Translations under genes and position numbers: made by a program
Notes under the pieces: generated by a model
Seen by the model: the letters and a program-made list of their open reading frames with translations, nothing else
Told to the model about the DNA's origin: nothing
Database searches by the model: none
Source of the DNA: Nodosilinea sp. FACHB-141
Lineage (GTDB): Bacteria > Cyanobacteriota > Cyanobacteriia > Phormidesmidales > Phormidesmidaceae
DNA: 64,000 bases
Assembly (NCBI RefSeq): GCF_014696135.1
Contig: NZ_JACJPP010000002.1
Location: 124,001-188,000, forward strand
Direction: 5' to 3'
Shown: one piece after another, positions 46,904 to 64,000 of the stretch
Layout: the number at the start of each line of letters is the position of its first letter
Position numbering within the stretch: position 1 is the first letter of the stretch

Positions 46904-47957
46904 TTAGATAGGCACAATTAGCCCACAGCCTTCATCCAGCAGTGAAAGCCCGTCAGTCCTCGAATTGAACGCCGGTCGGTTGAGCAAGACTCGACACCGC
47001 TGGGCTACGACCGCTTCTAATTGGTCTAACGACTCGAAACTTCGATTGGCGATGGCCTCATTGGTCGCTGGCCAGAAACGCTCTGAGGGCTGCAACTCGG
47101 GGGACTTAGGGGGCAGAAACAATAAATGGATGCCCTCAGGGACAACGACGTTGGCGGTTGTGTGGAAGGCCGCTTGATCCAACACCAGGACAACGCGCTT
47201 GTCGGGACTAAGGTCAAAATGGGCGGCGAAATCAGCGAGGACTTGGTTGAACATTTGCCCGTTGAGTTTTGGCACGATCCACTAGTAGGTCTGCCCTGTC
47301 ATGGGCTCAACAAAGCCCATGAGCCATAGCCATTGGTATTTCCAGTTGACCTGAGCAATGGGGATGTGACCCAGCGGTACCCAGACCATGCGGTTGACGG
47401 GGTGAAGGCCAATTCTGTGCTCATCTTCTGCCCAAGCCTCAACCTGGGCTTGGTAATGAGCGGCTTGGACGTCAGCTACGGTTTAGGCGAGTTTTTTTCC
47501 ACGCTTCCTAAGTGTCGAGGTCACTCTCGACGTGCTCAGGGCGAGGACGACGGCGGCGCATCTCCAGACTCTTGAGGTACTCCTACCCGCGTTGAGGATG
47601 AATGGGGCAGCCCAGCACCTCACTCATCCAACGAGCTACTTTAGGACCATCCGACAGGTCGCCATCTCCAGGCGGCATTTAAAGGGCTTGCTAGAGTTGA
47701 GCCTGCTGAACCGCATTCACCAGGGGGGCTTGCCCCGGATTATGACGCCGTTGGTCGCCAAGGGCACTAAGGCCTTGCTCGTTGTAGCGCCTCAACAGTT
47801 TGTAAATCCGGTCACGGCTGTAGCTCGTTGAGGCTGGTACGTCTGCTGGAGAGCGACCTTGAGCTAGAAACCAGATGATTTGGTAGTGGGAGCGCTTGAT
47901 GCCCCCTTTGGCGTCTCGGTAGCGACGCTCTAGCTCATCTACTGCCAGATAATCCAC
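46904..47957 (-). pseudogene. Decayed IS630-family transposase
   Basis: The 5' part (47691-47957) encodes the helix-turn-helix region (HYQIIWFLAQGRSPADVPAS, RIYKLLRRYNEQGLSALGD). The 3' part (46904-47275) encodes the DDE end (VLVLDQAAFHTTANV; LLFLPPKSPELQPSERFW). Between them the reading continues (DGPKVARWMSEVLGCP; WAEDEHRIGLHPVNRMVW), but with TAG in place of a likely Trp in QRGW and in TYWW, a TAG in EAWKK context, and at least one frame change. The gene would have coded for about 350 residues. It is therefore dead. Terminal inverted repeats could not be fixed. It marks past transposition at the junction between the exoprotein locus and the downstream island. Confidence 0.85.
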
Positions 47958-50443: not shown

Positions 50444-53400
50444 CTAATCAGCCTCGTCGTTGTCCTCTAAAAGGATTGTGTTTAACAAGTTAAGCTCGCT
50501 GGATGCCATAAAGTATCGGTTGTCAAATACGGTTTCTAGCTGGCTGATAGTTCGTTGACCAACAACAGCTGCCCAGGGAAAATCTTGATAAATAGGTAGA
50601 ACTGGCATAACCAGCCCCTGGGATGTCAACGCAGTTCCTAAGGCATTGCGCCAAGTTGTTGGGTCTTCTAGCAGTTTTTTCCTGCCACCATCTTCGGGCT
50701 GGATCTTCCAAAAATGTGGATAGTCTAGCGGTAGCGCAACCACAATGTTATCGGTCTTAGTGTCTTGTAAGGTCGAGTATTCTCTGACAGGTGTTTCTTT
50801 CTCCCGAATGAGCAGTCGGTGAAGCTCTTTGGCCGGTTGCCGCAGCTTAGGTGGAAAGCTAGTGTTGTCAGCAATTGAGTTTAAAAGCCCTAGCAAATTG
50901 AGGCTACCTTTATCAACATCGGTACGCCAGGTCTCGAAACTAAATCTCTCTTCGGATGTTCTTCCGCGCCAGTCTTCTATCCAGAAGGGGCCGACACAAG
51001 TCAGCTCCTGGGGAATGGTTAAGCTTTCATCGGTAAGCGCTCCTAGTAGGCGACTGGTGGGGCGTGAGATCGTTTTGGCCAAGGCTTCAATGGCGGTGTA
51101 GTCCACATAGGAGGCTGTGCCTACCTCCGGAGAAAATCCCTTTAGATTGAAGTGGGCAAAAAGCCCTTCCACCAGCTGCTGAGCTTTTCCTATCAGGGCT
51201 TTATCATCTTGGGTGTGGTCATCACATAGAAACACCTGAGCCTCCCGCAGAAAGTCTCGCAGGTCATCAGACATGAGGCTTAGCAGTTCTTCGTCGCCGA
51301 CAAACCCCACCGGTACAAAGGCAATGCGCTGCCGCTGAAGCCCGGCGTCTCCTTTAATGCGGGTATGGATAGTGGAGCGTAGCATCAACAACAATGTCAG
51401 TAGGTCAGTTGACTGCCGTAGCCAACGGCGATCGCGGTCTTCAGAACCGTCTACGATCATAAAGTCGTTAATGAGCATCACCAGACGGCGAGCCTTATGG
51501 TCGCCTGATACCTTTTGGCCTGTTACTACATCAGTGTATAGGCCGCGACCTCGATAAATGAGTTGGGCTACCTCCATGAGAGCTGCTTCTATATTGAATC
51601 GGGGAATGGAGGCAATGATCCAATCGGTTTTTGGGAAAGAGACCCCTCTGGCCCCGGAGGAAGTCATGAGAAAGACACGAACTTGGTCGCGCTGAGGCTC
51701 TTGAACCAGCTTGAGGCGCTGGTCTTCCCGCACGCTTTGATCCAAGATTTTTACATCATCAGGGGTGAGCTGCGGCGCTTCGCCTGCCGTTAGGGTTTGC
51801 CGCAGTTGTCTCAAGAAAGCTTTATCTTGGGCAAAAAAGATAATTTGCTCAGCCCCCTGCTTCAGCGCCGTCTCGATTTCGATCTGAGCATTTCTGAGCA
51901 ACTCCTCATCAGACTGCTCACGCACGGCCTGGCGGATGGGCTGAGGCTGCCCATCACTGGTAAGGCCTGGGGTAATAGACGCTAGCCGAATGCTGTAGTT
52001 GATATCGAGGGTAGACGCCGGATAACTGTTGGTCATGATGTGCAGGGTGGGATGCAGACCTGACCCGACTTTCAGGGTTGTGCCGGTGACACGAAACGCA
52101 CTGCTGCCAGCGGTTGGGCTAATCAACACCTTATCTGGGGCACGGTCGCCAGAGTTTAGATAGCTGTTGAGCACCACTTCGTTACTTAACGAGGCATCCG
52201 AAATGATCAGCACTACCCGAAAGGGACAGTGCTCTCCTTCAAAGGGTTCGATGAACTGCTGGGTGAGCCATTCTGCTAGCCCGTGGCAGAAGAGTGCTCC
52301 AGCCCCATCACCGGCTACTTCATCGACCATGGCGATAACAGTCGGAATTTTTTTGGCAAAGTTTCGCCGCTCCTGCTTGCCTGCGGTGGTATTGGCTTTT
52401 TTGGTAAACAACTGGCTGAGGGCATCAATGGTTGTCTGGTTCCTGAGGGAGCGGTATCCCTGGATGGCAGCGGTCAGCACCAGCCGGTTGACCTGGGGAT
52501 TCACATCAAGCAACTTGCGGGCCGCGATCGCGAGTGTCCTCAAAACCCCTGGGCGAGTCTTTGACTGCATACTGTCTGCTCGCTCGGTACGGGCACGCTT
52601 GTACCGCCTTGAAGCGACAATTTCGGTATCAATATCCTGCTCTTCCTGGGGCGTGACAAATAGGGTGTTGCAGATGGGATGATTCAGTTCAGCGACGCCG
52701 TCTGCGACAACAGCGCTGTCAATTTGCAGTTTTTTGGTGCCTGGGGTATGAATCTTTTGCTCGTACCACGAAGCCGCTGAGCTGATCAGCTTTGCGTTTG
52801 AGGTTAGGGTTAAAATGCCGCTCGGCTGGCCCTCGTCATTGTGGGCGAGTTTGGCGGTCACGTCTCGGTTGATGACGACTCGGGGACTGACATAGAGAAA
52901 GCAATAGCCTTCGTCTTGCTGGGATAGAAATTGAGTGACCGCAGTGGTCTTGCCGATCCCCGGATTCCCCTCTAGCGCGATCACATTCAGCCTGCCGGGT
53001 TGCGCTGCGGTAAGCCCAGCCACTACCGCAGCGGCGTGGGTATTTCTGAGGGTCACGTCACCGGTTGGAGACAGACGCTGTTTGAGAGCGGTGGTAATGG
53101 CTGGTCGGGGATCGCCGTCGAAAAAATCCTCCAGGGCATCTGTGGACTCCAGGGAAGAGAGGGCATCTTCTACCGATAGCGCCTGCATCGGTGTATAGAA
53201 GTCTTTGACCTTTTCTGAAAGAGACAGGTGCAGTGAACTGCCTAGGTCGGGGGCGTCGCCGATGGTTTTGGCCTGTTTTCTGAAGTCTGATGGGAGCGAT
53301 CGCACCAGCTTGTTAAACACAATCCGAATTTCTTTATCTAGATCATCGCGGGCACCATCCTTTAGTTTGTGGGCCTTACGGTAGGCTTCGCCTAGGGATG

Positions 53401-54328
53401 CCATGAGCTGAATGCGAGGGTCACTCCCCTGGACACCGTCGTCAAACTCGGCGGTTAGGCTTTCTAACCCGTTGGAGGTGACTGCGATCGCGCTAGCCCT
53501 GCACCCTTTGGTCAGACGTTCCTGCTTAACTAACAAGTTGACTAGTCGTTCAGTGTAAGAGGAAGCCTGGCAGAGCTTGAAGAGAGGCTTGTCGCTACCG
53601 CTAAAGGCCACCAGATGATCAGACAGCTGTTGGCTGATCTCTAGCCCACTGCCTTCAACCTCAGCACAGACACGGGCGAATACGCCGCGCGACTCAATGT
53701 AACGGGCATAGCGGTGAACTTCGTTACAGTGGGGCTCCTCGGTTCTAAAATCTGCCAGCTTAGGGGGCGCGTTGTAGGAAAACTCTAGGCAAAGGATGAC
53801 ATTCTCGGGTCGCTTACTTTTGCGTCGAGTAGAAGCCTCAACAGCCTTCAGCCAAAGTAAAAAGTCGGCACGTCCAGGGCGACCGCGCTGGAGTAGCCCT
53901 ACATCGACGGGGCCAGGTAGCTTAAAGGCCTGCTTAAAGGCAAAGGCAGTTTTCTCAATCTCTTCATCGTAGGATTCTTCAACCCCAGGCAGTGATAGTG
54001 GAGCCCAAATAGCCTCGATTTGGTAATGTTTGAGGGCATTGCGCTTTAGGTATTCGCGCATGGTGCTCCACCCTAGCCCATAACCGAAAACCAGCAGATG
54101 TCGAATGTTGGACTCTACCCACTCTCTGACATTTTGATCGGTGACGTGGAGATCCCGGACGACACCCTGGGTTACGTCAGCAACCTTATACTCTTGCCAC
54201 CCTTCTAAGGATGGATGCCTTAAGGACAGCAGATCTTGCTGCACCAGGTAGGCAATGACGCCACGCTGAACTGCGATCTCAAACACACGGCCCCAGGTCG
54301 AGGCCCGCAACAGAAAGTCAGGTTCCAT
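50444..54328 (-). CDS. Large P-loop helicase-like protein of a putative defence operon
   Basis: The 1294-residue protein starts at the ATG at 54328, which overlaps the upstream stop as TAATG and has AGGAGG 8 nt before it. Residues 451-462 form a Walker A (EGNPGIGKTTAV), VAMVDEVAGDGAG-type sequence gives a Walker-B-like motif, and AQLIYRGRG resembles helicase motif VI. The region RQAVREQSDEELL to FFAQDKAFLRQL looks like the second RecA fold, so this is a superfamily-2-like ATPase of divergent type. The first 230 residues contain GRADFLLWL and ILCLEFSYN, which resemble the D and E-x-K strands of PD-(D/E)XK nucleases, though the Lys appears to be Ser. I cannot name a family. It is translationally coupled to the 1061-residue protein. 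Confidence 0.8.
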   Translation of the reverse strand: MEPDFLLRASTWGRVFEIAVQRGVIAYLVQQDLLSLRHPSLEGWQEYKVADVTQGVVRDLHVTDQNVREWVESNIRHLLVFGYGLGWSTMREYLKRNALKHYQIEAIWAPLSLPGVEESYDEEIEKTAFAFKQAFKLPGPVDVGLLQRGRPGRADFLLWLKAVEASTRRKSKRPENVILCLEFSYNAPPKLADFRTEEPHCNEVHRYARYIESRGVFARVCAEVEGSGLEISQQLSDHLVAFSGSDKPLFKLCQASSYTERLVNLLVKQERLTKGCRASAIAVTSNGLESLTAEFDDGVQGSDPRIQLMASLGEAYRKAHKLKDGARDDLDKEIRIVFNKLVRSLPSDFRKQAKTIGDAPDLGSSLHLSLSEKVKDFYTPMQALSVEDALSSLESTDALEDFFDGDPRPAITTALKQRLSPTGDVTLRNTHAAAVVAGLTAAQPGRLNVIALEGNPGIGKTTAVTQFLSQQDEGYCFLYVSPRVVINRDVTAKLAHNDEGQPSGILTLTSNAKLISSAASWYEQKIHTPGTKKLQIDSAVVADGVAELNHPICNTLFVTPQEEQDIDTEIVASRRYKRARTERADSMQSKTRPGVLRTLAIAARKLLDVNPQVNRLVLTAAIQGYRSLRNQTTIDALSQLFTKKANTTAGKQERRNFAKKIPTVIAMVDEVAGDGAGALFCHGLAEWLTQQFIEPFEGEHCPFRVVLIISDASLSNEVVLNSYLNSGDRAPDKVLISPTAGSSAFRVTGTTLKVGSGLHPTLHIMTNSYPASTLDINYSIRLASITPGLTSDGQPQPIRQAVREQSDEELLRNAQIEIETALKQGAEQIIFFAQDKAFLRQLRQTLTAGEAPQLTPDDVKILDQSVREDQRLKLVQEPQRDQVRVFLMTSSGARGVSFPKTDWIIASIPRFNIEAALMEVAQLIYRGRGLYTDVVTGQKVSGDHKARRLVMLINDFMIVDGSEDRDRRWLRQSTDLLTLLLMLRSTIHTRIKGDAGLQRQRIAFVPVGFVGDEELLSLMSDDLRDFLREAQVFLCDDHTQDDKALIGKAQQLVEGLFAHFNLKGFSPEVGTASYVDYTAIEALAKTISRPTSRLLGALTDESLTIPQELTCVGPFWIEDWRGRTSEERFSFETWRTDVDKGSLNLLGLLNSIADNTSFPPKLRQPAKELHRLLIREKETPVREYSTLQDTKTDNIVVALPLDYPHFWKIQPEDGGRKKLLEDPTTWRNALGTALTSQGLVMPVLPIYQDFPWAAVVGQRTISQLETVFDNRYFMASSELNLLNTILLEDNDEAD

Positions 54329-57300
54329 TACGGTTGCCTCCTGTGCAGGGTCTGCGACACATGGGTGAGAAGGGCAGGATAGCTGAGATGAACCAGCCCT
54401 CGACGGCGAGAGTGCAAAATTTCGACTTCTCCGGTAGCTTCCCGAGTGGCAGGGGAGATCCACCGAAAGGGATCTAACACGGGGATGAGCTGCCCACCTT
54501 TGACCCCTCGCTCAGCTTCAATAAAGTGCAACCCCCGCAGTACCGCTATCAGACAGGGATGGATCTGGGAATCGCCCTCTGGGTCAAGCAGGTGCTGGCG
54601 GCCACGCTCTGCCCTAATGTCTCGCACCCGATGGTCAGACACCAAGAAGTACACACAGAACCCGGACTGGGGCCGCTTTTCTTCATCGACGGCATGCAGC
54701 GTGGCAAAGGTGTAGACCGGAATGATGTCTCGCACCACATCCATGGCGGTATTGGGGAGAAAATTGACGTGGTCTTCAGCTTTTAAAATTTCAAAGGCGG
54801 CTTCTTTGCGGTCCCGCTTCCGCAGGCGGGTAGCGGGGAAAACATCTCGTAGTAGGGGGTAAAGGATCAGGTCTGGAAACGATTGAAAGACCTCTTCGAG
54901 AAAGGTGACTGGGGTCAAAGGCGAGTTGTGGTCAGCAATGCGGTTGAGATGTCGCCCCCCATAGGCATGGGACAGCAAAATGATGTGCTTGCAGCCGAGC
55001 TGGCGAAGATGTCCGATTTCTTCTCGAACGAGGCGTTGGTTTTGCATCTCCTCGTGGGATCTGACAATGTCAGATTGGGTGCGCTCTGGCTTTAGCTCGT
55101 ACCCGGAAAAGGGTTGGGCGATCGCTGAGGCGATATAGCTCTGGGTAAAGAACAGGTGGCTTCTGTTGTCGCCATTTGAAGTGGGGGCCTCATCACAGGG
55201 GCGCGTGGAGTAGGAAATCAGGCCGATTGTCTCGACATGAGGTTGAGACGGGGTGGTCAGCGCCAGGGGAAAAGCACTGACTAGGGCATCAAACGCGCCA
55301 GACTTAACATACCGAGCTGAATCAGAGGCCAGATTATCTAGGGTGATCCCTTGCATGCGGACTGGACCATCTTGAGCCAGTAGTGCCTCTATGGACTGGG
55401 CAGCTCCGTAGACGTATGCTTCGCCTTCGCTATCGCTGTTTTTGCCAGTCTGCTGAAGACGCAGCATCAGGGTCGTAAAGTCTGTCGGCGACTCCGCCGC
55501 ACCCTCTCGCAATCGCTGAATGATTCGCCACAGGCAGCAGTAAATTAATAGGGGAAAGGCGGCGATCGCGGCAGCATGCCACTGTTGGGTGTCTGCCCCT
55601 CCTTTTTGAGCCCTACTCTGACGGGTCAACGTGCGCAACTCATACTCAACTAGCACTGACGACGATAGCGCCCATGCTTTAGCCTGCTTGGCTGTTGGGG
55701 TTAAATTGTAGGGCTGGTCTTTACCCGACTCGCAGGGTACCCAGATAACCTGAAGTAGCTGCCCCGGAAACAAGCGCTGGGCCTGCATGATGTGGGGGTC
55801 TGCGCCCTTGTTGGGTACCAGGTTGTGCTCTGTTAGCTCGGTGGTGACTTTGAGGGAAAACAGCAGTTGAGTCACATCGGGAGTATCAGAAATTTCGATG
55901 TGGTTAAACCATTCCACTGACTCCTGATTCTGAGTTGGGGCACTCACCAACAGGTCTTTTACCCCTGGTTCAGCCCCTTCCAACCGGCTCCAGGCGACAA
56001 CGCCCCGTTTCACGCAAATAAATTGTTGCGCTGTGCGGCGCTGGGCCTGAGCCACAATTTTGTTGCCTTTGTCTTGCAGCAGCTTAATCATCGCCCGCGA
56101 AACGGCCTGCATGGCTCCGGTGCGATCCCTAAGATCTTGAATCAAGGTTTGGATGCCAGGTCTGCCGTCAGCCATTAAGGTCGCCAGGCGTGTTTGGAGA
56201 GTCTGGGTAATTGTGGTCGTCGAAATCTCCTGAGCTTCCCCGGAGAGTTTAGGGATGACGGCGTCCAGCACAATTAGCTCAGCCAGGCGTCGGCACAGGC
56301 TGTAGGGTGACACGCTTAGCGGATCTTCCGCCAGCAGAGTTTCGCTGATGAAGTCTAGGCGAGCGTCAAAGGCCGGTTTCCCTTTTTCAGGATTATTGCC
56401 ATTGATGCGGAAGCGATAGCTGACTCCTCGCTGCACACCATAGCTGTCTTTACTGCTGACCTTCTCCTCAAAAATTTGAGTTTTCCATTCGGGCCATACC
56501 GCTAGGCATGTGTAGAAGGTGGCTTGGTTTAGGTAGGTGGCCAGGTCAAACTCAGCATTCTGACCGTAATGAGCGGTCAGGTCAACAGATAGGCCATCCG
56601 CTTTAACCGTTTCCACCAGCGCTAGAGCCCTGTCGATATACTCTACCAGGTATTGATTATCGCGCTGGGTACTGCTACGAGCCTGCTCGGCAACGGTCTC
56701 CATGATTCTGAAGGCGACGTTTAGCCGCACGCGGGACAGCGCTGCGTCGTCTAGAAAATTGAGGAATCGCGTAATCTGGCTATCGGCGCGATCGCGTTCA
56801 GCCTCCAGGCTGTCGATGGCATCACCGATATCATCTTCGTCAAAGCCGCGCTGCTCAAGGCGAGATGCGATCGCTTCTTTCATGCGGCCAAAGCAGTTAT
56901 CGGCCTCGACCTGTTCGACCGCCACCAAAACCTTGGCGACTGCCGCAGAACGGTTGCGATCGCTGGAGTCAAACGCCAGGGGCTGAAGATTAGCCTGGTA
57001 AACCTGATCTTTGAAAGTGGCTCCTACAGAGGAGGCCAGGGTTTGAAGCTGCTGGGCCGGGCGATCTAGCAACAGCTTGGGCAGGTCAGACTCATCTGGT
57101 AGAGCAGCGTCCAGAGCCTGATCGATAGCCGCGATCATTTTGTCGAGGTGCCCCGGTAGCTTGGCTGGGTTGCCCTCGGGTAGCTCTCCGCCCAGCTTGG
57201 CCCTGAGGCCAAAGGGAGGCGCATTAAAATCTTGGACAAAACCGCCTGTATCCGAGGGTTTGAAGGCGTCTTTGAACTTGGTGTGGGAGAAAAGCCTAAG

Positions 57301-57513
57301 CAAGACCGCTGAGGTACAAACCCGCAGACGGGTCTTGTTTGTTGCTGGGTCGGCGCTGAAGAGAAACAGCGATCGCTTTTTTGGGTCGGAATCCTGAGAT
57401 GGATCCTGTTCGGTAACGATTGAATCGGCAAGTAGCTCTAGGAGCTTAGCCAGATCGACAGATGGCCGAGCTGAAGGTGCCTGAATCTTGGCACCCCGAT
57501 CTTGGGTAGTCAT
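54328..57513 (-). CDS. Large uncharacterised protein, partner of the helicase-like protein
   Basis: The 1061-residue protein starts at the ATG at 57513 (MTTQDRGAK), with AGGAGG 10 nt upstream; a longer frame begins inside the promoter at 57624. The first 350 residues are helical (RFLNFLDDAALSRVRLNVAF). The middle has mixed structure with a short basic strand (QFICVKRGVVAWSRLEG). The C-terminal 350 residues alternate strands and helices: ETIGLISYSTRPCDEA, CKHIILLSHAYGGRHLNR, FCVYFLVSDHRVRDI, GLVHLSYPALLTHVSQTL. I recognise no catalytic motif with confidence. A divergent RNase-H/PIWI-like fold is one possibility, from strand order only. It has a separate promoter and is translationally coupled to the next gene, so the pair probably acts together. 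Confidence 0.78.
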   Translation of the reverse strand: MTTQDRGAKIQAPSARPSVDLAKLLELLADSIVTEQDPSQDSDPKKRSLFLFSADPATNKTRLRVCTSAVLLRLFSHTKFKDAFKPSDTGGFVQDFNAPPFGLRAKLGGELPEGNPAKLPGHLDKMIAAIDQALDAALPDESDLPKLLLDRPAQQLQTLASSVGATFKDQVYQANLQPLAFDSSDRNRSAAVAKVLVAVEQVEADNCFGRMKEAIASRLEQRGFDEDDIGDAIDSLEAERDRADSQITRFLNFLDDAALSRVRLNVAFRIMETVAEQARSSTQRDNQYLVEYIDRALALVETVKADGLSVDLTAHYGQNAEFDLATYLNQATFYTCLAVWPEWKTQIFEEKVSSKDSYGVQRGVSYRFRINGNNPEKGKPAFDARLDFISETLLAEDPLSVSPYSLCRRLAELIVLDAVIPKLSGEAQEISTTTITQTLQTRLATLMADGRPGIQTLIQDLRDRTGAMQAVSRAMIKLLQDKGNKIVAQAQRRTAQQFICVKRGVVAWSRLEGAEPGVKDLLVSAPTQNQESVEWFNHIEISDTPDVTQLLFSLKVTTELTEHNLVPNKGADPHIMQAQRLFPGQLLQVIWVPCESGKDQPYNLTPTAKQAKAWALSSSVLVEYELRTLTRQSRAQKGGADTQQWHAAAIAAFPLLIYCCLWRIIQRLREGAAESPTDFTTLMLRLQQTGKNSDSEGEAYVYGAAQSIEALLAQDGPVRMQGITLDNLASDSARYVKSGAFDALVSAFPLALTTPSQPHVETIGLISYSTRPCDEAPTSNGDNRSHLFFTQSYIASAIAQPFSGYELKPERTQSDIVRSHEEMQNQRLVREEIGHLRQLGCKHIILLSHAYGGRHLNRIADHNSPLTPVTFLEEVFQSFPDLILYPLLRDVFPATRLRKRDRKEAAFEILKAEDHVNFLPNTAMDVVRDIIPVYTFATLHAVDEEKRPQSGFCVYFLVSDHRVRDIRAERGRQHLLDPEGDSQIHPCLIAVLRGLHFIEAERGVKGGQLIPVLDPFRWISPATREATGEVEILHSRRRGLVHLSYPALLTHVSQTLHRRQP

Positions 57514-57594
57514 ATTGGGTGGTCCTCCTTTTCTCGGTCTTGCGACCGCTTCACTCTCCCAGGCGACCAACCCAGAGGAGTGGGAACTAAACAA

Positions 57595-57624
57595 TGAATA
57601 ACTTAGTATTTCCCAAAATGTCAA
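57595..57624 (-). promoter_or_regulatory. Candidate promoter for the 1061/1294-residue gene pair
   Basis: On the minus strand TTGACA (57624-57619) is followed after 18 bp by TATTCA (57600-57595). A start near 57588 would give a leader of about 75 nt to the ATG at 57513. The -35 is perfect; the -10 is a moderate match. Confidence 0.55.
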
Positions 57625-57777
57625 GTCCAGCTAAGAATCTTCGATGAAGTCTAGCTTTTCCTATTACCTGGCCAGCCGACCTGATAGCAAAAATTTCGGT
57701 ATGGCCAGACTTTTAGCGAACAGAAAGATAGTAGTTCAAAATTCATTATGGTATTTTGCTAGCAGGCTTTAGATTAG
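57625..57777. other. Gap between the two gene blocks of the island operon
   Basis: 153 bp, AT-rich, with no gene and no clear terminator for the upstream genes, so read-through from the DUF6884 gene is possible. TGGCCA-containing motifs at about 57668-57675 and 57702-57708 are the only local symmetry. Confidence 0.4.
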
Positions 57778-58194
57778 CTAACTATGGCCATTAAACCAGG
57801 ACAGTTGTTTCCCGATGGCTAATCCCTTCAGAGGAATAACTACAACATATTCAGCGTCGTTAAGTTTTGGGGCAAGATTTTCACGGTACGTCTCTCCAGC
57901 AAAAATATGGATTTCACTAGAGTTATTGGTCAATCTTTTAATTTCATCAAGCACATTCTGAGCCCATTCGTTTCTAGCCTCTGAAGGAATTGACTTCAAA
58001 GTCTTATCATAGGGAGAAATAACATCAGAAGGCTCGACAAGCCCATGCTGAGCTGAAAGAATAAACCAAATTGAGTAGTGTTTCTCAACGTAAGCCTTAG
58101 CTTTAATGAACCAGGTTGACTGGTAAAGGTCTTTAGCAGCGCAAGGGTAGTATTGCTTTTTGCTAACACAAGAGACTAATGCAATTTTATCCAT
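57778..58194 (-). CDS. DUF6884 protein
   Basis: The protein is 138 residues from the ATG at 58194. It shows IALVSCVSKKQYYPCAAKDLY and FILSAQHGLVEPSDVISPYD, the two hallmarks of DUF6884. The S-A-x-H-G-L-v-x-P motif resembles the core of YaaA-fold proteins, which bind DNA; that link is inference. It begins 6 nt upstream of the GIY-YIG stop's end, so the two are coupled. In this context it is likely a recognition or accessory component rather than an enzyme with known chemistry. Confidence 0.8.
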   Translation of the reverse strand: MDKIALVSCVSKKQYYPCAAKDLYQSTWFIKAKAYVEKHYSIWFILSAQHGLVEPSDVISPYDKTLKSIPSEARNEWAQNVLDEIKRLTNNSSEIHIFAGETYRENLAPKLNDAEYVVVIPLKGLAIGKQLSWFNGHS

Positions 58195-58199
58195 GCAAG

Positions 58200-59108
58200 T
58201 CAACCCATGAATTGAGCGGAGGGAAGCTGCTCAGTCACTAGCAAATGCGAGGCAATCAAGTCGTTTTCAAGCTCTAACCGGTGGTGCTCTTTCCAAATAG
58301 GGTTTATTACCCAAGAAAACTCAAGCGGGCAAGCCTCTTGAAAGACTAAGTCTTGTGCTCTCCTGGCTCTACTGACTTTACTTAGATGGGCCTTTAGCCT
58401 GGCCTGCAATTGACCTTGCCCAATATAAACCAGGTTTTTTCTACCTTGGCTGCGAATTCGATATAAGCCCTGAGCTTCTTGAGGAATTTTCAAAATAGCT
58501 TCTGGTGGTAGCCACTCTGACCACTGATGACCAGCCCAGTTTGCCCTGTCTGGAATGCTCATCAAAGACCCAGTTGGTTGAATACCAAGAACATGACTGT
58601 TATCCAATGCTAATGTCAATCCGCCTCTATTGCGCTTCCCTAAAGCTGTCAGGCGGGCGTTATTGGCTGTGGACATTTGGTACCCAGTTGGCATTCTGCC
58701 GAAGTTAACCTCTGGAGACCTTTGATGAGTATATCGGTACAAGCTAATGGATAGCGCCTCTAGCCCCTTACGCCAGGGAGTACTCCACTCTCCGTCTAGA
58801 ATAGACACTTCAAAGTTGCAGCCTTCGGCATGCCTAATAGACCAAAGCGCGGGTGCAGCAGTATGAGGGTCTCTGTATGGCATTTCTACAGCGTATATAC
58901 CTCTCAACATTCCCATACGCTTTTTGAGATTCATGTTGCCTGCACCGGTTTGACCAATGTAAGCCAGTTCTTGCTGCCCTGCTCGGCGGATGCGATAGAG
59001 CCCTGGCAATGAAGGAATCCGATTACCCCTCCAACATTCGTACAGAGGTTGCCAATCCGACCAATGAGCTAACTGCTGAACCACCCAGCCAGAGAAATTT
59101 TCAAACAT
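58200..59108 (-). CDS. Protein with two GIY-YIG nuclease-like domains
   Basis: The protein is 302 residues from the ATG at 59108 (MFENFSGWVV). It contains two GIY-YIG motifs: GLYRIRRAGQQELAYIGQTG near residue 36 and GLYRIRSQGRKNLVYIGQGQ near residue 215. Each is followed by a basic helix (LKKRMGML; LQARLKAHL) that usually carries the catalytic Arg. A later Glu (HHRLELENDLIA) could serve as metal ligand for the second copy. The longer TTG start at 59156 lies inside the helicase gene and is unlikely. The start overlaps the UvrD stop, so translation is coupled. Two copies in one chain could cut both strands or dimerise internally; this is inference. Confidence 0.82.
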   Translation of the reverse strand: MFENFSGWVVQQLAHWSDWQPLYECWRGNRIPSLPGLYRIRRAGQQELAYIGQTGAGNMNLKKRMGMLRGIYAVEMPYRDPHTAAPALWSIRHAEGCNFEVSILDGEWSTPWRKGLEALSISLYRYTHQRSPEVNFGRMPTGYQMSTANNARLTALGKRNRGGLTLALDNSHVLGIQPTGSLMSIPDRANWAGHQWSEWLPPEAILKIPQEAQGLYRIRSQGRKNLVYIGQGQLQARLKAHLSKVSRARRAQDLVFQEACPLEFSWVINPIWKEHHRLELENDLIASHLLVTEQLPSAQFMG

Positions 59109-61134
59109 GGAGCGAAAGAAACTGTGTGGGCTTTCCCTGCCAGCAAAGATAGGCAAAGTCGCGGGCGCGGGTGATGGTGACGTAGAGCAGATGTCGTTCT
59201 AGTTCGATAGATTCTGCCTTGGCCTCATCATCGGAGGCTTCCGAAAGAGCTTTCGGGAGCGGCAGAATGTTATGTGACAAATCGATGGCAAATACCGCTT
59301 TGAACTCTAGGCCTTTGGCACGATGCATGGTGCCGAGGCGAACGGCGAAACCTGACTCGTTGTCTTGACTGTTTAGGTTGATGTAAGGGATTTGTAGGCT
59401 CTGTAAATGCTCTTGAACTGGGGATAGAAGATAGCGAGTTCTAGCAAATATACCGACTTCAGATAGCAAAAGCCCTCGCTCGGTCAGATTTTGAATTTCT
59501 TTAGCAACAAATTGGGCTTGCTGTTCGGGGCTGTCAAAGGCGGTGAGAACAGGTTCTGGGCCTTGAAGCAAACTGACGGTGCCCTTGCGGGTTTCGCGGC
59601 TACCGTCTAAGTCATCGCTTTCGAGGTCGGTAATGCGGTCGGCAAAGCGGCGAATTTGCTCGGTGGTGCGGTAGTTGATCTTCAGCGTGCGCGATCGCCC
59701 TTGAACGTTGATACCCAGAGACTTGAGGGAGAATTTGCCTTGATAGATACGCTGCCCCCCATCGCCTACCATCATGAAGCTGTTAGGGCCATCTCCAGCT
59801 AGAGCGGCGAGGAACTTGAGCTCTTGGGGGCGGAGGTCTTGGACTTCATCGACAATAACGGCGTCATAGCCCTGGCTGACTAACCCATGGGCTAGAACGT
59901 CGCTGGCGCGGCGAAAGTAGTGACCCCAATCGGCTTTGTGGTCGTTGTCGAGGTGGGCCAAGACTTTTTCGAGCACCTGCCAGACCTGGCGACGATCGCG
60001 CACGGTGAGGGGAGTGCCACGTCCTTTTCGGCTAACGGAGCGAAATTCATCCCAGGTCAGAATGCCGTGGGGTTGAATGACTAAACGCCACTCTTGCCAG
60101 AGGGACGTAATGTCTAGAGGGCAGGTGGGCGAGCTGTAGAGTTCGAGGAGCGGTTTGATGTCGCTATCGCCGACGGTACGACAGCCTTGTTTTGCTTTGC
60201 CCAAAACTGAACTGGCTTGGCTGGCTACGGAGGTGACGGTGATATTGTCTGACTCTTCTGGGGTGCAGAGGAGTTGGAGGTTGTGCTTTAGGTTGTCGCA
60301 CAGGGTGTTAACGAAGGTCGTTAAGAGTACCTTTTTGCCTTGGCGGGCTAGGTGCCGGGCGCGATGGAGGGCGACGACGGTTTTGCCCGTGCCTGCAGAA
60401 CCTGTCACTTTGACAGGGCCATTGAAATTACCGGTCACTAGCCGCCGCTGAGAGGGATGGAGAAAACCAATCCAGGTGGCTAGCGGGGCCTGGAGCATTT
60501 TCTCCAGTTCGCCCTGGCTTTTCACGGTAATAAAGCGGCGCTGGGTGTCGGCATTGTCAGCCACAGCCTTGGATGTGGGTGCAACAGGAGGAGCCACCAA
60601 TTCCCCTGAGGCCACTTGCAGCAGTCGTTCTGAGACTTCTTCGGGAAGTCTCTCGATGATGTTGAGCAGGTCATCGGCGGTGATCAGCTGCCGCAGCACG
60701 GGCAGCCAGTCGTTGGGCAACCCCAAACTCAGCAAGTAATCGTCTTCATAGGCATCAAACAGACCAACTTGCCAAGATTCTCGCCTGGGGACAATTTCTT
60801 CGACAGACTCAACGACTTCGACGATCTGTAGGGCTCCTGTCTTGTCATTAAACTCGACCTTGCGGTTGCTGGCCCAGTGGTAAGCGTCGTCGTGGTGCCC
60901 GGCATGGAGCAATGCCCAGGTATCGCCATCTTTATAGACGATTGCTCTCAGATCTTGGGTAATGCGTGCTGACCAGAGGTTATCGTTTTTGATTTTGGTA
61001 AGGCGCTCCAAACTGAGGCTGGGTTGGGCTGGGTTGTCCTGAAATTTGAGAATAAAGTCGTTGGCCCGTTTGACTTCTGCGCCACTCAAGCTAACCAAGG
61101 ATTGAAATAGAGATTTGCAGATCAGTACATTCAT
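59101..61134 (-). CDS. UvrD/Rep-type helicase with RelE-like N-terminal domain
   Basis: The 677-residue protein starts with about 100 residues of RelE/ParE-like fold (LTKIKNDNLWSARITQDLRA; IVYKDGDTWALLHAGHHDDA). The superfamily-1 helicase follows: Walker A GSAGTGKT (245-252), motif II VIVDEVQDL, motif III FMMVGDGGQRIYQ, motif IV KINYRTTEQIRRFA, motif V LGTMHRAKGLEFKAV and motif VI LYVTITRARDF. All motifs are intact, so it should be an active 3'-5' DNA translocase. The ATG is 8 bp after the stop of the DUF1998 helicase gene. RelE-UvrD fusions are found in defence islands; here the fold may sense or bind rather than cleave RNA, as no RelE catalytic residues can be assigned. Confidence 0.9.
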   Translation of the reverse strand: MNVLICKSLFQSLVSLSGAEVKRANDFILKFQDNPAQPSLSLERLTKIKNDNLWSARITQDLRAIVYKDGDTWALLHAGHHDDAYHWASNRKVEFNDKTGALQIVEVVESVEEIVPRRESWQVGLFDAYEDDYLLSLGLPNDWLPVLRQLITADDLLNIIERLPEEVSERLLQVASGELVAPPVAPTSKAVADNADTQRRFITVKSQGELEKMLQAPLATWIGFLHPSQRRLVTGNFNGPVKVTGSAGTGKTVVALHRARHLARQGKKVLLTTFVNTLCDNLKHNLQLLCTPEESDNITVTSVASQASSVLGKAKQGCRTVGDSDIKPLLELYSSPTCPLDITSLWQEWRLVIQPHGILTWDEFRSVSRKGRGTPLTVRDRRQVWQVLEKVLAHLDNDHKADWGHYFRRASDVLAHGLVSQGYDAVIVDEVQDLRPQELKFLAALAGDGPNSFMMVGDGGQRIYQGKFSLKSLGINVQGRSRTLKINYRTTEQIRRFADRITDLESDDLDGSRETRKGTVSLLQGPEPVLTAFDSPEQQAQFVAKEIQNLTERGLLLSEVGIFARTRYLLSPVQEHLQSLQIPYINLNSQDNESGFAVRLGTMHRAKGLEFKAVFAIDLSHNILPLPKALSEASDDEAKAESIELERHLLYVTITRARDFAYLCWQGKPTQFLSLHV

Positions 61135-61142
61135 AGGGTTGC

Positions 61143-64000
61143 CTACAGCGCCTGGAGAATGGTTTCGATGGCCTGAGGGACTTTGGGGTTAATGGCGAGC
61201 ACTGATTTACCCTGGGCGGTTAAAGCCGTTTGGAGGTCGTCCACATCGTCTGCTCTGGCATCGACCAGGTAAATGAGCGCGGTGCCTCGACAGACTTGGG
61301 CGGTGTAGGTACCAACAACTTGACCGTTGACTTCCACATCACTGCCACCATCGACTTGAATATCACTGTGCTGGGCCAGGGCTTTGATTAGGGATCGCCA
61401 GTCTGGCTCAAAGAGTTCAAGGGGTTCTTGTAAGTCGGAAGTGTCTGAACCTGCTGAGCCCCCCTCAGGGGGTTCAGACACTTCCGGTTGGGTAACAAAC
61501 CAATCCGACGAATTGCGAATGGCATCGGCCCTAGGCCTGTCTAGTAAAAGTCTGCCCAGGCGGAAGAAATATTTAGCCATCCGGTCGCGATCCTCTAAAT
61601 CGCCTGCGGGGATAGCGATCACTTCGTAGCCTTCGTTGCTCAGATCCTCGCGAATGGCTTGGTCTTTGGCCTGGCGCTCGGTATTGCCGTGGAGAGGGCG
61701 GCTCATGCCATCGAGATAGATACAGACTCCTTCTTTAATGTCGGTGGGATCGGGGTAGAAGAAGTCTGGGGTGGTGGTGCCTAAGGGCTTGCCCAGGTCA
61801 ATGCTGTGCTGGGGGATGGGGTCAGGAAACCCAGCTCGCCTCAGCATGGTCTGGAGCAAGGCTTCAGCATGGTTGACCGGGCGGTGTTCGTCGTCCTCTT
61901 CATTCCTGGGCAGGTTGGCTGGAATGGTGTGACTTCTGGTGAGAATGTCTTCCCACTCCCGCAATTTTTTCAGCGCTGTATGCCGGTTGAGGTGCCTGTG
62001 GTAGTAGGCATTGCGAAAATTAAACAGACAGTCGATACAAGCGGTCTGGCAGCGAGATTTGCAATCGCTGAGCACTGAAATGGCCGCTTCAACTACCCCT
62101 GTCCACTTGGTCAGCAATTGCTCTAGCAAACCAGAACCGCCCGGCATGGGGTCGTAGAGCAACACGTCTACCCGTTCACTGCCGGGATGGCCAATGGTGA
62201 GGATTTGAAGATCTTCTAGCTCCATTTCTAGAACGTTGCTAGCCCCGTGGCGAATGGCTTCCATAATGCTGTAAGCTACTTCGCGGTTTTCGCAGTCTTG
62301 GAGACTGAAGGCATCGGCAATGATATCGGCAAAGAAACCAACAGGCTCAATTTTGGTGCGGCAGCGATTTTCGTGATCCTCTTTGAAGAGATTTAGGTCT
62401 TGCTCGGACGTGAAGGGGGAACGGCTGCGACCACAGACCAGACAGACGGTGTAGCCCAGGTCTCCAGTTCGCACTAGGTTAGCGGGGCCAACGTTGACCA
62501 GTCGCAGGTGAACTCCTCGGCGGAGTTGAACCGATTGGTCTTTCCACTGAAATGCGAGGCCGCCGCTGTGACGCCCTTGCTCGTAGCCCATGATGGTAAC
62601 CGGCATCTGGAAGCGGTTGTCTTCGTCGTCGGAAATGTTTGACTGGTGGGATAGATCCACGTCGCACATGGGGACGGCTTTGATAGAAGCTGAAGACAAG
62701 CTGGACGAGAGCTGTTGCCCGCTGCCGATTTCTTTAATAGCTTCGCTGGCAACATCGACCTGGAAGTAGGTGGGGTCTTCGGGCTCTAGGTGGAAGTAGC
62801 GGGGCACGAAGCGCTGGCCGTTGGCATAGATTAAATTGCCGGGGACGTATTCGCGCAGGGCCACACTGGGGGGCCGAGGCAGGTCAAAGTCTGACATCCA
62901 GGTGATGCTGCGGGGCATCTGGGCTGTCCCCTGGATGTGTCCACCATCGAGCCCGTAGCCAGGAAGAAAACTCTCAGCGGCGAGGACGCTGTAGGTGATG
63001 GTGTCGTCCACGCCTTCGGCATCGCTTCCCTTTCTAAAGGTTTGCCCTTTGAGTCGTTTGACCAGGCGATCGCAGCGGCGAAACAGGGCATCATCTTCTG
63101 GATCGAGTGCCCCCTTGAGAATGCGTTCTTCACTGAGCCGCCGGAGCTGGCCCATGGCCCACTGTAGACGTTTCCACAGAGTCAGAATGACCTTGGCTAA
63201 CTCATCGCCCATAATGGCAATGTGGTGCTTTAACTCAGCTTCCTTAACGGCCATGGCGTCGCTCTCGGGCCAGGCTTTAGCAAAGGCCTGATCGACGTGC
63301 CCATACAGGGCGATCGCATGTTTTTGAATCAGCCCGTTCAGGCTGCTGACATCCAGAGGTCCGGAACGCACAAAGCCACTGTCATCAAACAGGTAGTTTT
63401 TGACCTGGCCGGGGAAGCAGGTCTCCAGGACGGATTGAATTTCGTCGCGATCGCCCTGGGGGATGCCGTGGCCGGTGCGGGACATCTGGTGCAGCGTGGT
63501 CAGCACCGCTGCCCGTACATGCTTACCCACCATCAGGGTATTGCGGAGGTTGAGCTTGGGGGGCTCGATCAGCCCATCCAATAGGCGCAGGGGATCGGCA
63601 AAATAGGAGCGATCGTGGCTGGCTCCTCGGGCGTAGGTGAGGTTGACCGCCATGCGGTAACGACGCCCAGCTCGGCCCGCTCGCTGCCAGTAGTTGGCCG
63701 GGAGCGGCGGTACATTGCGCATGAGGACAGAATCTAGGGAGCCAATGTCGATACCCATTTCGAGAGTGGGGGTACAAACCAGGGCGTTGATCAGTTCGCT
63801 GTCGCCTTTGAAAATGCGCTCAATGCGATCGCGGGTTTCGTGGGGCACCTGGGCCGAGTGTTCTTCAGGCCGCAGCATGGCAAACTGCTCGTCTAAAACG
63901 CGCAGGTCGTAATCGTCGGTGCTCTCGGGTTCAAAGGCAATGGTGCCATCACAACGCCAGGTGGTGCAGGCCAAACGCGGCGTGGGGCGCGGGTGAGCCC
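61143..64000 (-). CDS. DUF1998 helicase with C-terminal Vsr/DUF559-like nuclease (5' end outside window)
   Basis: The frame is open through the right edge, so the N-terminal helicase half is missing. The visible part begins near a Cys pair (LACTTWRCDGT). Helicase motifs V and VI follow (LVCTPTLEMGIDIGS; NYWQRAGRAGRRYRMAV). The DUF1998 domain has CLVCGRSRSPF and the four-Cys cluster CKSRCQTACIDC. The last 200 residues hold TPDFFYPDP, CIYLDGMSRPLHG and REDLSNEGYEVIAIP, the pattern of Vsr/DUF559 nucleases. DUF1998 helicases are central to DISARM, Druantia and related systems. It is followed, 8 bp on, by the UvrD helicase. Confidence 0.88.
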   Translation of the reverse strand, partial: AHPRPTPRLACTTWRCDGTIAFEPESTDDYDLRVLDEQFAMLRPEEHSAQVPHETRDRIERIFKGDSELINALVCTPTLEMGIDIGSLDSVLMRNVPPLPANYWQRAGRAGRRYRMAVNLTYARGASHDRSYFADPLRLLDGLIEPPKLNLRNTLMVGKHVRAAVLTTLHQMSRTGHGIPQGDRDEIQSVLETCFPGQVKNYLFDDSGFVRSGPLDVSSLNGLIQKHAIALYGHVDQAFAKAWPESDAMAVKEAELKHHIAIMGDELAKVILTLWKRLQWAMGQLRRLSEERILKGALDPEDDALFRRCDRLVKRLKGQTFRKGSDAEGVDDTITYSVLAAESFLPGYGLDGGHIQGTAQMPRSITWMSDFDLPRPPSVALREYVPGNLIYANGQRFVPRYFHLEPEDPTYFQVDVASEAIKEIGSGQQLSSSLSSASIKAVPMCDVDLSHQSNISDDEDNRFQMPVTIMGYEQGRHSGGLAFQWKDQSVQLRRGVHLRLVNVGPANLVRTGDLGYTVCLVCGRSRSPFTSEQDLNLFKEDHENRCRTKIEPVGFFADIIADAFSLQDCENREVAYSIMEAIRHGASNVLEMELEDLQILTIGHPGSERVDVLLYDPMPGGSGLLEQLLTKWTGVVEAAISVLSDCKSRCQTACIDCLFNFRNAYYHRHLNRHTALKKLREWEDILTRSHTIPANLPRNEEDDEHRPVNHAEALLQTMLRRAGFPDPIPQHSIDLGKPLGTTTPDFFYPDPTDIKEGVCIYLDGMSRPLHGNTERQAKDQAIREDLSNEGYEVIAIPAGDLEDRDRMAKYFFRLGRLLLDRPRADAIRNSSDWFVTQPEVSEPPEGGSAGSDTSDLQEPLELFEPDWRSLIKALAQHSDIQVDGGSDVEVNGQVVGTYTAQVCRGTALIYLVDARADDVDDLQTALTAQGKSVLAINPKVPQAIETILQAL

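Follow-up and report, generated by a model that had tools for sequence, protein, structure and literature searches.

A probable composite defence island in Nodosilinea combines an ARMADA Type II-like operon with a separate gene pair for a predicted inactive PIWI-fold protein and a helicase

The window, a 64,000-nucleotide (nt) stretch of genomic DNA from Nodosilinea sp. FACHB-141 (positions 124001–188000 of its contig, in a genome of 5.9 Mb and 31 contigs), contains six long minus-strand open reading frames (ORFs) at its right end, which ORF calling recovers as originally listed. We designate them A to F, running from right (5′) to left along the minus strand (Table 1). The genes are closely packed. 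A and B are 8 base pairs (bp) apart, the stop of B overlaps C by 8 bp if C begins at the ATG at 59108, C and D touch (low end of C at 58200, high end of D at 58203), and the stop of E overlaps the start of F. A preliminary description made from the letters and ORFs of this DNA had placed a 153-bp gap with its own promoter between D and E. That length is true only for a TTG start of E at 57624. The ATG at 57513 has the support of the homologues and of an AAGGAGG ribosome-binding site, and from this start the gap measures 264 bp. The promoter is unsupported, since a scan of the gap found no minus-strand sigma-70 site, despite the presence of a TTGACA hexamer. The domain assignments of that description are largely right. 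Profile matches support DUF1998 in A, UvrD in B and DUF6884 in D, whereas the GIY-YIG assignment of C comes from motifs only.

Table 1 Features of the locus. Positions refer to the window unless a locus handle is given.
Feature	Position	Strand	Remarks
A: ArmC-like YprA/DruE-type DUF1998 helicase	61143..64000, continues right of the window	minus	C-terminal 951 of 1,915 aa
B: ArmD-like GajB/UvrD helicase, weak RelE/ParE-like N terminus	59101..61134	minus	677 aa
C: double GIY-YIG-motif protein, probable insertion cargo	58200..59108	minus	~302 aa from ATG 59108; motifs only
D: DUF6884 (YaaA-like; PADLOC PDC-M57A) protein, probable insertion cargo	57778..58203	minus	profile matches
E: predicted catalytically inactive PIWI/Argonaute-fold protein	54328..57513	minus	1,061 aa; predicted structure
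F: SF2 helicase (core ~residues 425–1010) with conserved, possibly nuclease-like N-terminal domain	50444..54328	minus	1,294 aa
Mokosh Type I (MkoA–MkoB)	L003:8925-13903 (window-equivalent 68925-73903)		between ArmB-like and ArmC-like genes

We followed the contig rightward as far as it goes, called ORFs in that flank and searched their proteins with PADLOC and Pfam. With the right flank included, A attains its full length of 1,915 amino acids (aa). It matches DruE (PADLOC, 402 bits) and contains a Helicase_C domain and an MrfA Zn-binding (DUF1998) domain (MZB, 44.9 bits; Pfam). The Vsr-type nuclease of ArmC was sought in its C-terminal 951 residues, and Pfam gave no nuclease match there. B matches UvrD_C (Pfam, 78.6 bits) and GajB (PADLOC, 131 bits), and its N terminus shows a weak RelE/ParE-like match (Pfam ParE_like, 15.5 bits, under the model cut-off). 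Rightward from A, the genes encode a 388-aa protein, a Uma2-family protein, the PLD protein MkoB, the kinase-helicase MkoA and a 1,749-aa DrmMI/IIG methyltransferase, followed by a 142-aa ORF and a 971-aa DrmD/BrxHII-like helicase. The apparent lack of methyltransferase and PLD genes, remarked on earlier, was an effect of the window edge, as a methyltransferase, a PLD protein and an SNF2 helicase lie directly to the right. Beyond the DrmD/BrxHII-like helicase are a PDC-S11-like fragment, a transposase-like ORF and a CBASS Type III-like operon. This last operon, at the right-hand contig end (L004:5428-9949), is complete and encodes a phosphorylase-SAVED effector, a CD-NTase, a HORMA protein and TRIP13. 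Transposase-like ORFs occur on both sides of the island region (window 46904-47275 and L004:3685-4596).

The families and the order of these genes match those of ARMADA Type II, a system of three helicases and one methyltransferase encoded in the strict order ArmA (BrxHII-like), ArmB (a PglX-like methyltransferase), ArmC (YprA-like) and ArmD (a GajB-like UvrD helicase with an N-terminal RelE domain), which acts directly and non-abortively against phages in Escherichia coli (Bell et al. 2025, PMC12458937). The 971-aa protein has the features of ArmA (DrmD, 639.5 bits; BrxHII, 261.5 bits; SNF2-rel_dom), and the 1,749-aa protein has those of ArmB (DrmMI, 441.8 bits; IIG, 1340 bits; Eco57I, 80.6 bits). 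A corresponds to ArmC as a YprA-like helicase with DUF1998, and B to ArmD as a GajB-like UvrD helicase. The order ArmA–ArmB–ArmC–ArmD is kept. Thus, as judged from gene families and order, A and B are the end of an ARMADA Type II-like operon, the first two genes of which lie to the right of the window. The operon differs from ARMADA Type II in that Mokosh Type I, the Uma2-family gene and the gene for the 388-aa protein separate ArmB from ArmC, and in that C–D and E–F come after ArmD; E and F are not parts of ARMADA. The MkoA kinase-helicase (832 bits) and the MkoB PLD protein (251 bits) have overlapping genes and the expected kinase, AAA_11/12 and PLDc_2 domains, and constitute a separate known system inside the ARMADA-like operon. 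Both ARMADA and Mokosh have been described already.

Three other systems share components with this part of the locus. DruE of Druantia is homologous to A, DrmD and DrmMI of DISARM class 1 are homologous to right-flank genes, with the PglX-like ArmB methyltransferase being common to DISARM class 1 (PMC12458937), and GajB of Gabija is homologous to B. However, PADLOC found no match to DruH, the Druantia Type III partner of DruE, among the scanned neighbours, and no GajA was found at the locus. The stretch read has no separate drmA, drmB and drmC genes and no DrmA/DrmB pair, and instead encodes one fused YprA–DUF1998 protein. E had also been considered as a DruH candidate, which we dropped because it does not match DruH.

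The A–B unit recurs in other cyanobacteria. We mapped 11 cyanobacterial loci with a B relative (33–58% identity), and an A-type gene adjoins B in 10 of them, the eleventh beginning at a contig edge. Six of the 11 loci have DrmD and/or the methyltransferase nearby, and none has E–F. The arrangement A–B–DrmD–IIG is found in three loci (L248, L252 and L257), and the order methyltransferase–Mokosh–A–B reappears in another genus (L247:7435-19998). In this same locus, McrBC genes (L247:2048-5357) lie directly behind the ArmD-like gene, in the slot that E–F occupies in the window, which suggests a cargo hot spot downstream of ARMADA.

A comparison with the nearest relative that we met, Nodosilinea sp. 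LEGE 07298 (locus L106), sets C and D apart from the other four genes. A, B, E and F are 97%, 97%, 93% and 95% identical, respectively, between the two strains, whereas LEGE 07298 has ~31 unaligned bases in place of the ~1,474 bases that carry C and D in the window, leaving an empty site in the arrangement A–B–E–F. C is absent from the 372 other cyanobacterial genomes searched, and a relative with 38% identity lies beside transposase-type genes in Ramlibacter. D matches DUF6884 (Pfam) and PDC-M57A (PADLOC). On this comparison of sequences, C–D is probably a recent cargo inserted behind B. Its loss from LEGE 07298 is possible and less likely, because C is so rare.

E has no Pfam, NCBIfam or PADLOC match, and its relatives give chance-level hits only. 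The Pfam Piwi model finds no match in 28 E members at E-values of up to 0.1, PF02171 has no match in the genome of this strain, and PDB sequence profiles yield only chance hits. Comparisons of E with classical pAgos and with pPIWI-RE proteins by hhalign were negative and are uninformative, as the control comparison of pAgo with pPIWI-RE failed too. An AlphaFold2 model of E, built from a 28-row alignment, is of middling confidence (pLDDT 77, pTM 0.77). The top 48 Foldseek matches of this model are all Argonaute or PIWI proteins (best E-value 5.8e-7), with low TM-scores of 0.15–0.22 by query length. In the comparison with the 404-residue Archaeoglobus fulgidus Argonaute, 335 residues are aligned (4.7 Å, Z 10.9; VIA), and longer stretches align to full-length Argonautes (VIA). 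The modelling predicts that E is a divergent PIWI/Argonaute-fold protein with a MID–PIWI lobe at approximately residues 573–1057. Alternatively, the match to Argonaute could come from an error of the modelling or from likeness to RNase H-type folds in general, with E being an unrelated large scaffold protein, and the pLDDT value, the low TM-scores and the lack of sequence evidence linking E to Argonaute are all compatible with such an origin. However, the uniformly Argonaute top matches and the extent of the A. fulgidus alignment, which spans MID and PIWI and thus reaches beyond an RNase H core, make it quite improbable.

Among 101 E relatives, no substitution occurs at Q721–G722, Y955, H996, L1013 or P1015, and R685, G840, G951 and E1001 are nearly invariant. 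By contrast, an acidic residue is present at the PIWI strand-1 position (767) in two of the 101 relatives and at the strand-4 positions (848–852) in at most one, these catalytic positions being assigned from the order of the strands and from motifs, not from a residue-level superposition. E is predicted to have lost PIWI catalysis (DEDX) and not to cleave, because the strand-1 and strand-4 acidic residues are absent. From the place of Q721–G722 in the MID-like region, we infer that it contains the glutamine of the Argonaute 5′-end pocket.

F is an SF2 helicase, with a Walker A motif (GNPGIGKT), a DE box and an RGRG motif VI in its core. The fold of a model of residues 1–1200 (42 rows, pLDDT 86) matches DEAH, DEAD, RecQ and Ski2-like helicases, and PDB sequence profiles give weak SF2 helicase hits. 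The preceding region (residues 1–420) is highly conserved, with D155, K247, K251, Q254 and Y258 present in 94 of 94 F proteins, glutamate or aspartate at position 182, and S184 in 93 of 94. Its sequence pattern might be that of a derived PD-(D/E)XK domain, in which 93 of the 94 proteins carry serine where lysine is expected. A RecB/Cas4-like reading of the N terminus (D155, [E/D]182-x-S184, Q254-x3-Y258) has non-canonical spacing and a serine for the lysine, and is only noted here. A DinG-like cysteine cluster was considered and rejected, as no cysteine of an Fe–S set is invariant in the 94 F proteins, the commonest cysteine columns reaching 60–76%. XPD/DinG and DdmD are not among the best fold matches listed for F, although a relationship to them is possible.

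F-like genes are present in 53 of 386 sampled cyanobacterial genomes and fall into a close group (~55–70% identity) and a distant group (~25–30%). A scan of 84,980 species genomes yielded 230 F relatives. The 80 retained come from Cyanobacteria and Proteobacteria, apart from one metagenome bin each under the names Chlorobiaceae, planctomycete and Propionibacterium. Of 117 records, 108 have E on the same strand as F and upstream of it, and in 91 the two genes are no more than 30 bp apart; some loci are represented by two records, and the nine exceptions are mostly explained by contig ends or truncated stretches. The pairs mostly occur without ARMADA, and their remaining neighbours vary between loci. 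Among the E–F loci examined, four have ARMADA-type genes immediately upstream of E: the window, LEGE 07298, L122 and L105. B is missing in L122, and a B relative lies ~5 kb upstream of E in L117. The A and B genes of L105 are distant relatives, with only 25–29% identity, and stand in swapped order, so the adjacency of A–B and E–F arose at least twice.

This distribution bears on the central claim of the preliminary description, that the six genes form one undescribed defence system. In such a system, A–B (with C–D) would sense or process invader DNA and E–F would be the effector module of the same operon. The tight gene packing, the four loci in which A and/or B immediately precede E, the fifth with a B relative nearby, and the repeated origin of this adjacency speak for such a system. 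However, the vast majority of over 100 records have E–F on its own, the A–B relatives lack E–F in all 11 mapped loci, C–D is missing from the nearest relative, B is missing from L122, and A–B has well-defined partners of its own. A single integrated system is therefore very improbable. The six genes are not one system, as A–B, C–D and E–F separate in relatives. The two blocks do co-occur in three further loci (L105, LEGE 07298 and L122), so the co-occurrence that a single system would predict is not wholly lacking, yet they are clearly separable. Other parts of that description hold: the DNA is of defence type, A and B belong together, and E and F are coupled and could not be assigned from sequence alone. 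The gene order, the recurrence of the blocks and their separability are directly observed. On balance we favour, as reasonably probable, the interpretation that this region of the cyanobacterial genome is a defence island of composite make-up, in which an ARMADA Type II-like operon with a nested Mokosh Type I system is joined by the recent C–D cargo and by an independent module of an inactive PIWI protein and a helicase, E–F. Tight packing within a defence island is not a system definition, and the nearest relatives can tell the parts apart.

E–F is best read as an independent, horizontally spread two-gene module, separate from ARMADA. Plasmid copies occur in Cupriavidus, Acetobacter, Acinetobacter and Nostocales. 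In a survey conducted without a control set, the nearest genes of the proteobacterial pairs include type I, II and III restriction–modification (R–M), MADS, CBASS, Shango, Lamassu, McrBC and GmrSD genes and integrases. Broken or truncated copies of E or F in several Nostocales (L110, L111, L152 and L171) are consistent with repeated loss. Many pairs of the distant cyanobacterial clade, by contrast, sit among housekeeping genes. These would suit a housekeeping or replication-repair module, for example for R-loop resolution or replication completion, in which the inactive PIWI protein marks structures, not invaders, by binding them; PsPIWI-RE and pAgos are reported to affect cell division and sensitivity to gyrase inhibitors (PMC10991935; PMC10269773). 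Such a role is unlikely for E–F, given its patchy presence (the 53 of 386 genomes), its plasmid and broken copies, and the R–M and other defence genes that often adjoin it in Proteobacteria.

Among known PIWI systems, the closest in composition is the pPIWI-RE/DinG/REase triad, in which a PIWI-fold protein is encoded with an SF2 helicase and an REase in the gene order REase, DinG, pPIWI-RE; many members are inactive, their spread is patchy, and an arginine and a glutamate in a β-sheet extension are invariant (Burroughs et al. 2013, PMC3702460). E–F shares the PIWI fold, the SF2 helicase and possibly an REase-like domain, and R771 (93 of 101 relatives) and E1001 (100 of 101) of E are conserved and may correspond to the invariant pair. 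E–F could accordingly be a divergent pPIWI-RE branch with the helicase and REase-like parts fused in F. However, E–F consists of two genes with the PIWI-like gene first and the helicase gene second, PF13032 has no match in 28 E members or in the genome of this strain, and F has no invariant DinG Fe–S cysteines and has DinG/XPD outside its best listed fold matches. We regard this origin as improbable, and membership of E–F in pPIWI-RE is not supported. A search of 239 proteobacterial genomes for pPIWI-RE proteins, intended for a deeper set, gave no hits. True pPIWI-RE (PF13032) genes are present in a few other cyanobacteria (L185, L187 and L188), including one Nodosilinea species, and are located apart from E–F.

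In the second comparable system, DdmDE, the inactive pAgo DdmE acts with one large SF2 helicase-nuclease, DdmD, to remove plasmids. E–F, by its predicted fold, likewise pairs an inactive Argonaute with a large SF2 helicase, possibly with a nuclease, but E is larger (~1,060 aa) and the extra domain of F is N-terminal. PADLOC, the library of which may not include DdmD and DdmE models, gave no match to them for E or F, and DdmDE proteins are not among the 50 fold matches listed for E and F. In the accessible literature, which is incompletely covered, pPIWI-RE and DdmDE were the only PIWI–helicase arrangements that we found, with no earlier description of a pair such as E–F. E–F may nevertheless work like pPIWI-RE or DdmDE.

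We tentatively propose, as a possibility that falls a little short of an even chance, that E–F represents a type of prokaryotic immunity not described before, founded on another bacterial PIWI family in addition to the classical pAgos and pPIWI-RE, in which a catalytically dead PIWI protein of 1,000–1,200 aa directs a dedicated SF2 helicase, possibly also a nuclease, to the DNA of plasmids or phages. In the mechanism that we consider most likely, E, whether or not it uses a guide strand, would recognize an invader-specific nucleic acid, such as a guide–target duplex, an R-loop or a replication intermediate of a plasmid or phage. It would then recruit or switch on F, which would unwind, displace or degrade the invader DNA, a logic that would parallel DdmDE and the prediction made for pPIWI-RE with DinG and REase (PMC3702460). 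We infer guide binding by E, an E–F complex, nuclease activity of F and a defence role. If the proposal is true, E–F would add a large PIWI family that is recognizable by structure, lacks annotation and has a fixed helicase partner, carried by about one in seven of the sampled cyanobacterial genomes and also by Proteobacteria, and unseen by Pfam, NCBIfam and PADLOC. A further family that combines an inactive PIWI protein with a helicase would reveal whether bacterial PIWI proteins generally act by recruiting helicases. The pair comprises two genes, is easily cloned and suits asking which guides or structures are recognized. Within the six genes, E–F is the part worth studying, the ARMADA part having been described already.

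Two further loci show the pair in unusual settings. A Leptolyngbyaceae bin contains a solitary F without a recognizable E (L137:9989-13708), so F may occur by itself or beside a partner that escaped detection. On an Acinetobacter plasmid (L103:8384-21582), E–F is followed by a gene for a large DUF4011-domain protein, with toxin–antitoxin genes nearby.
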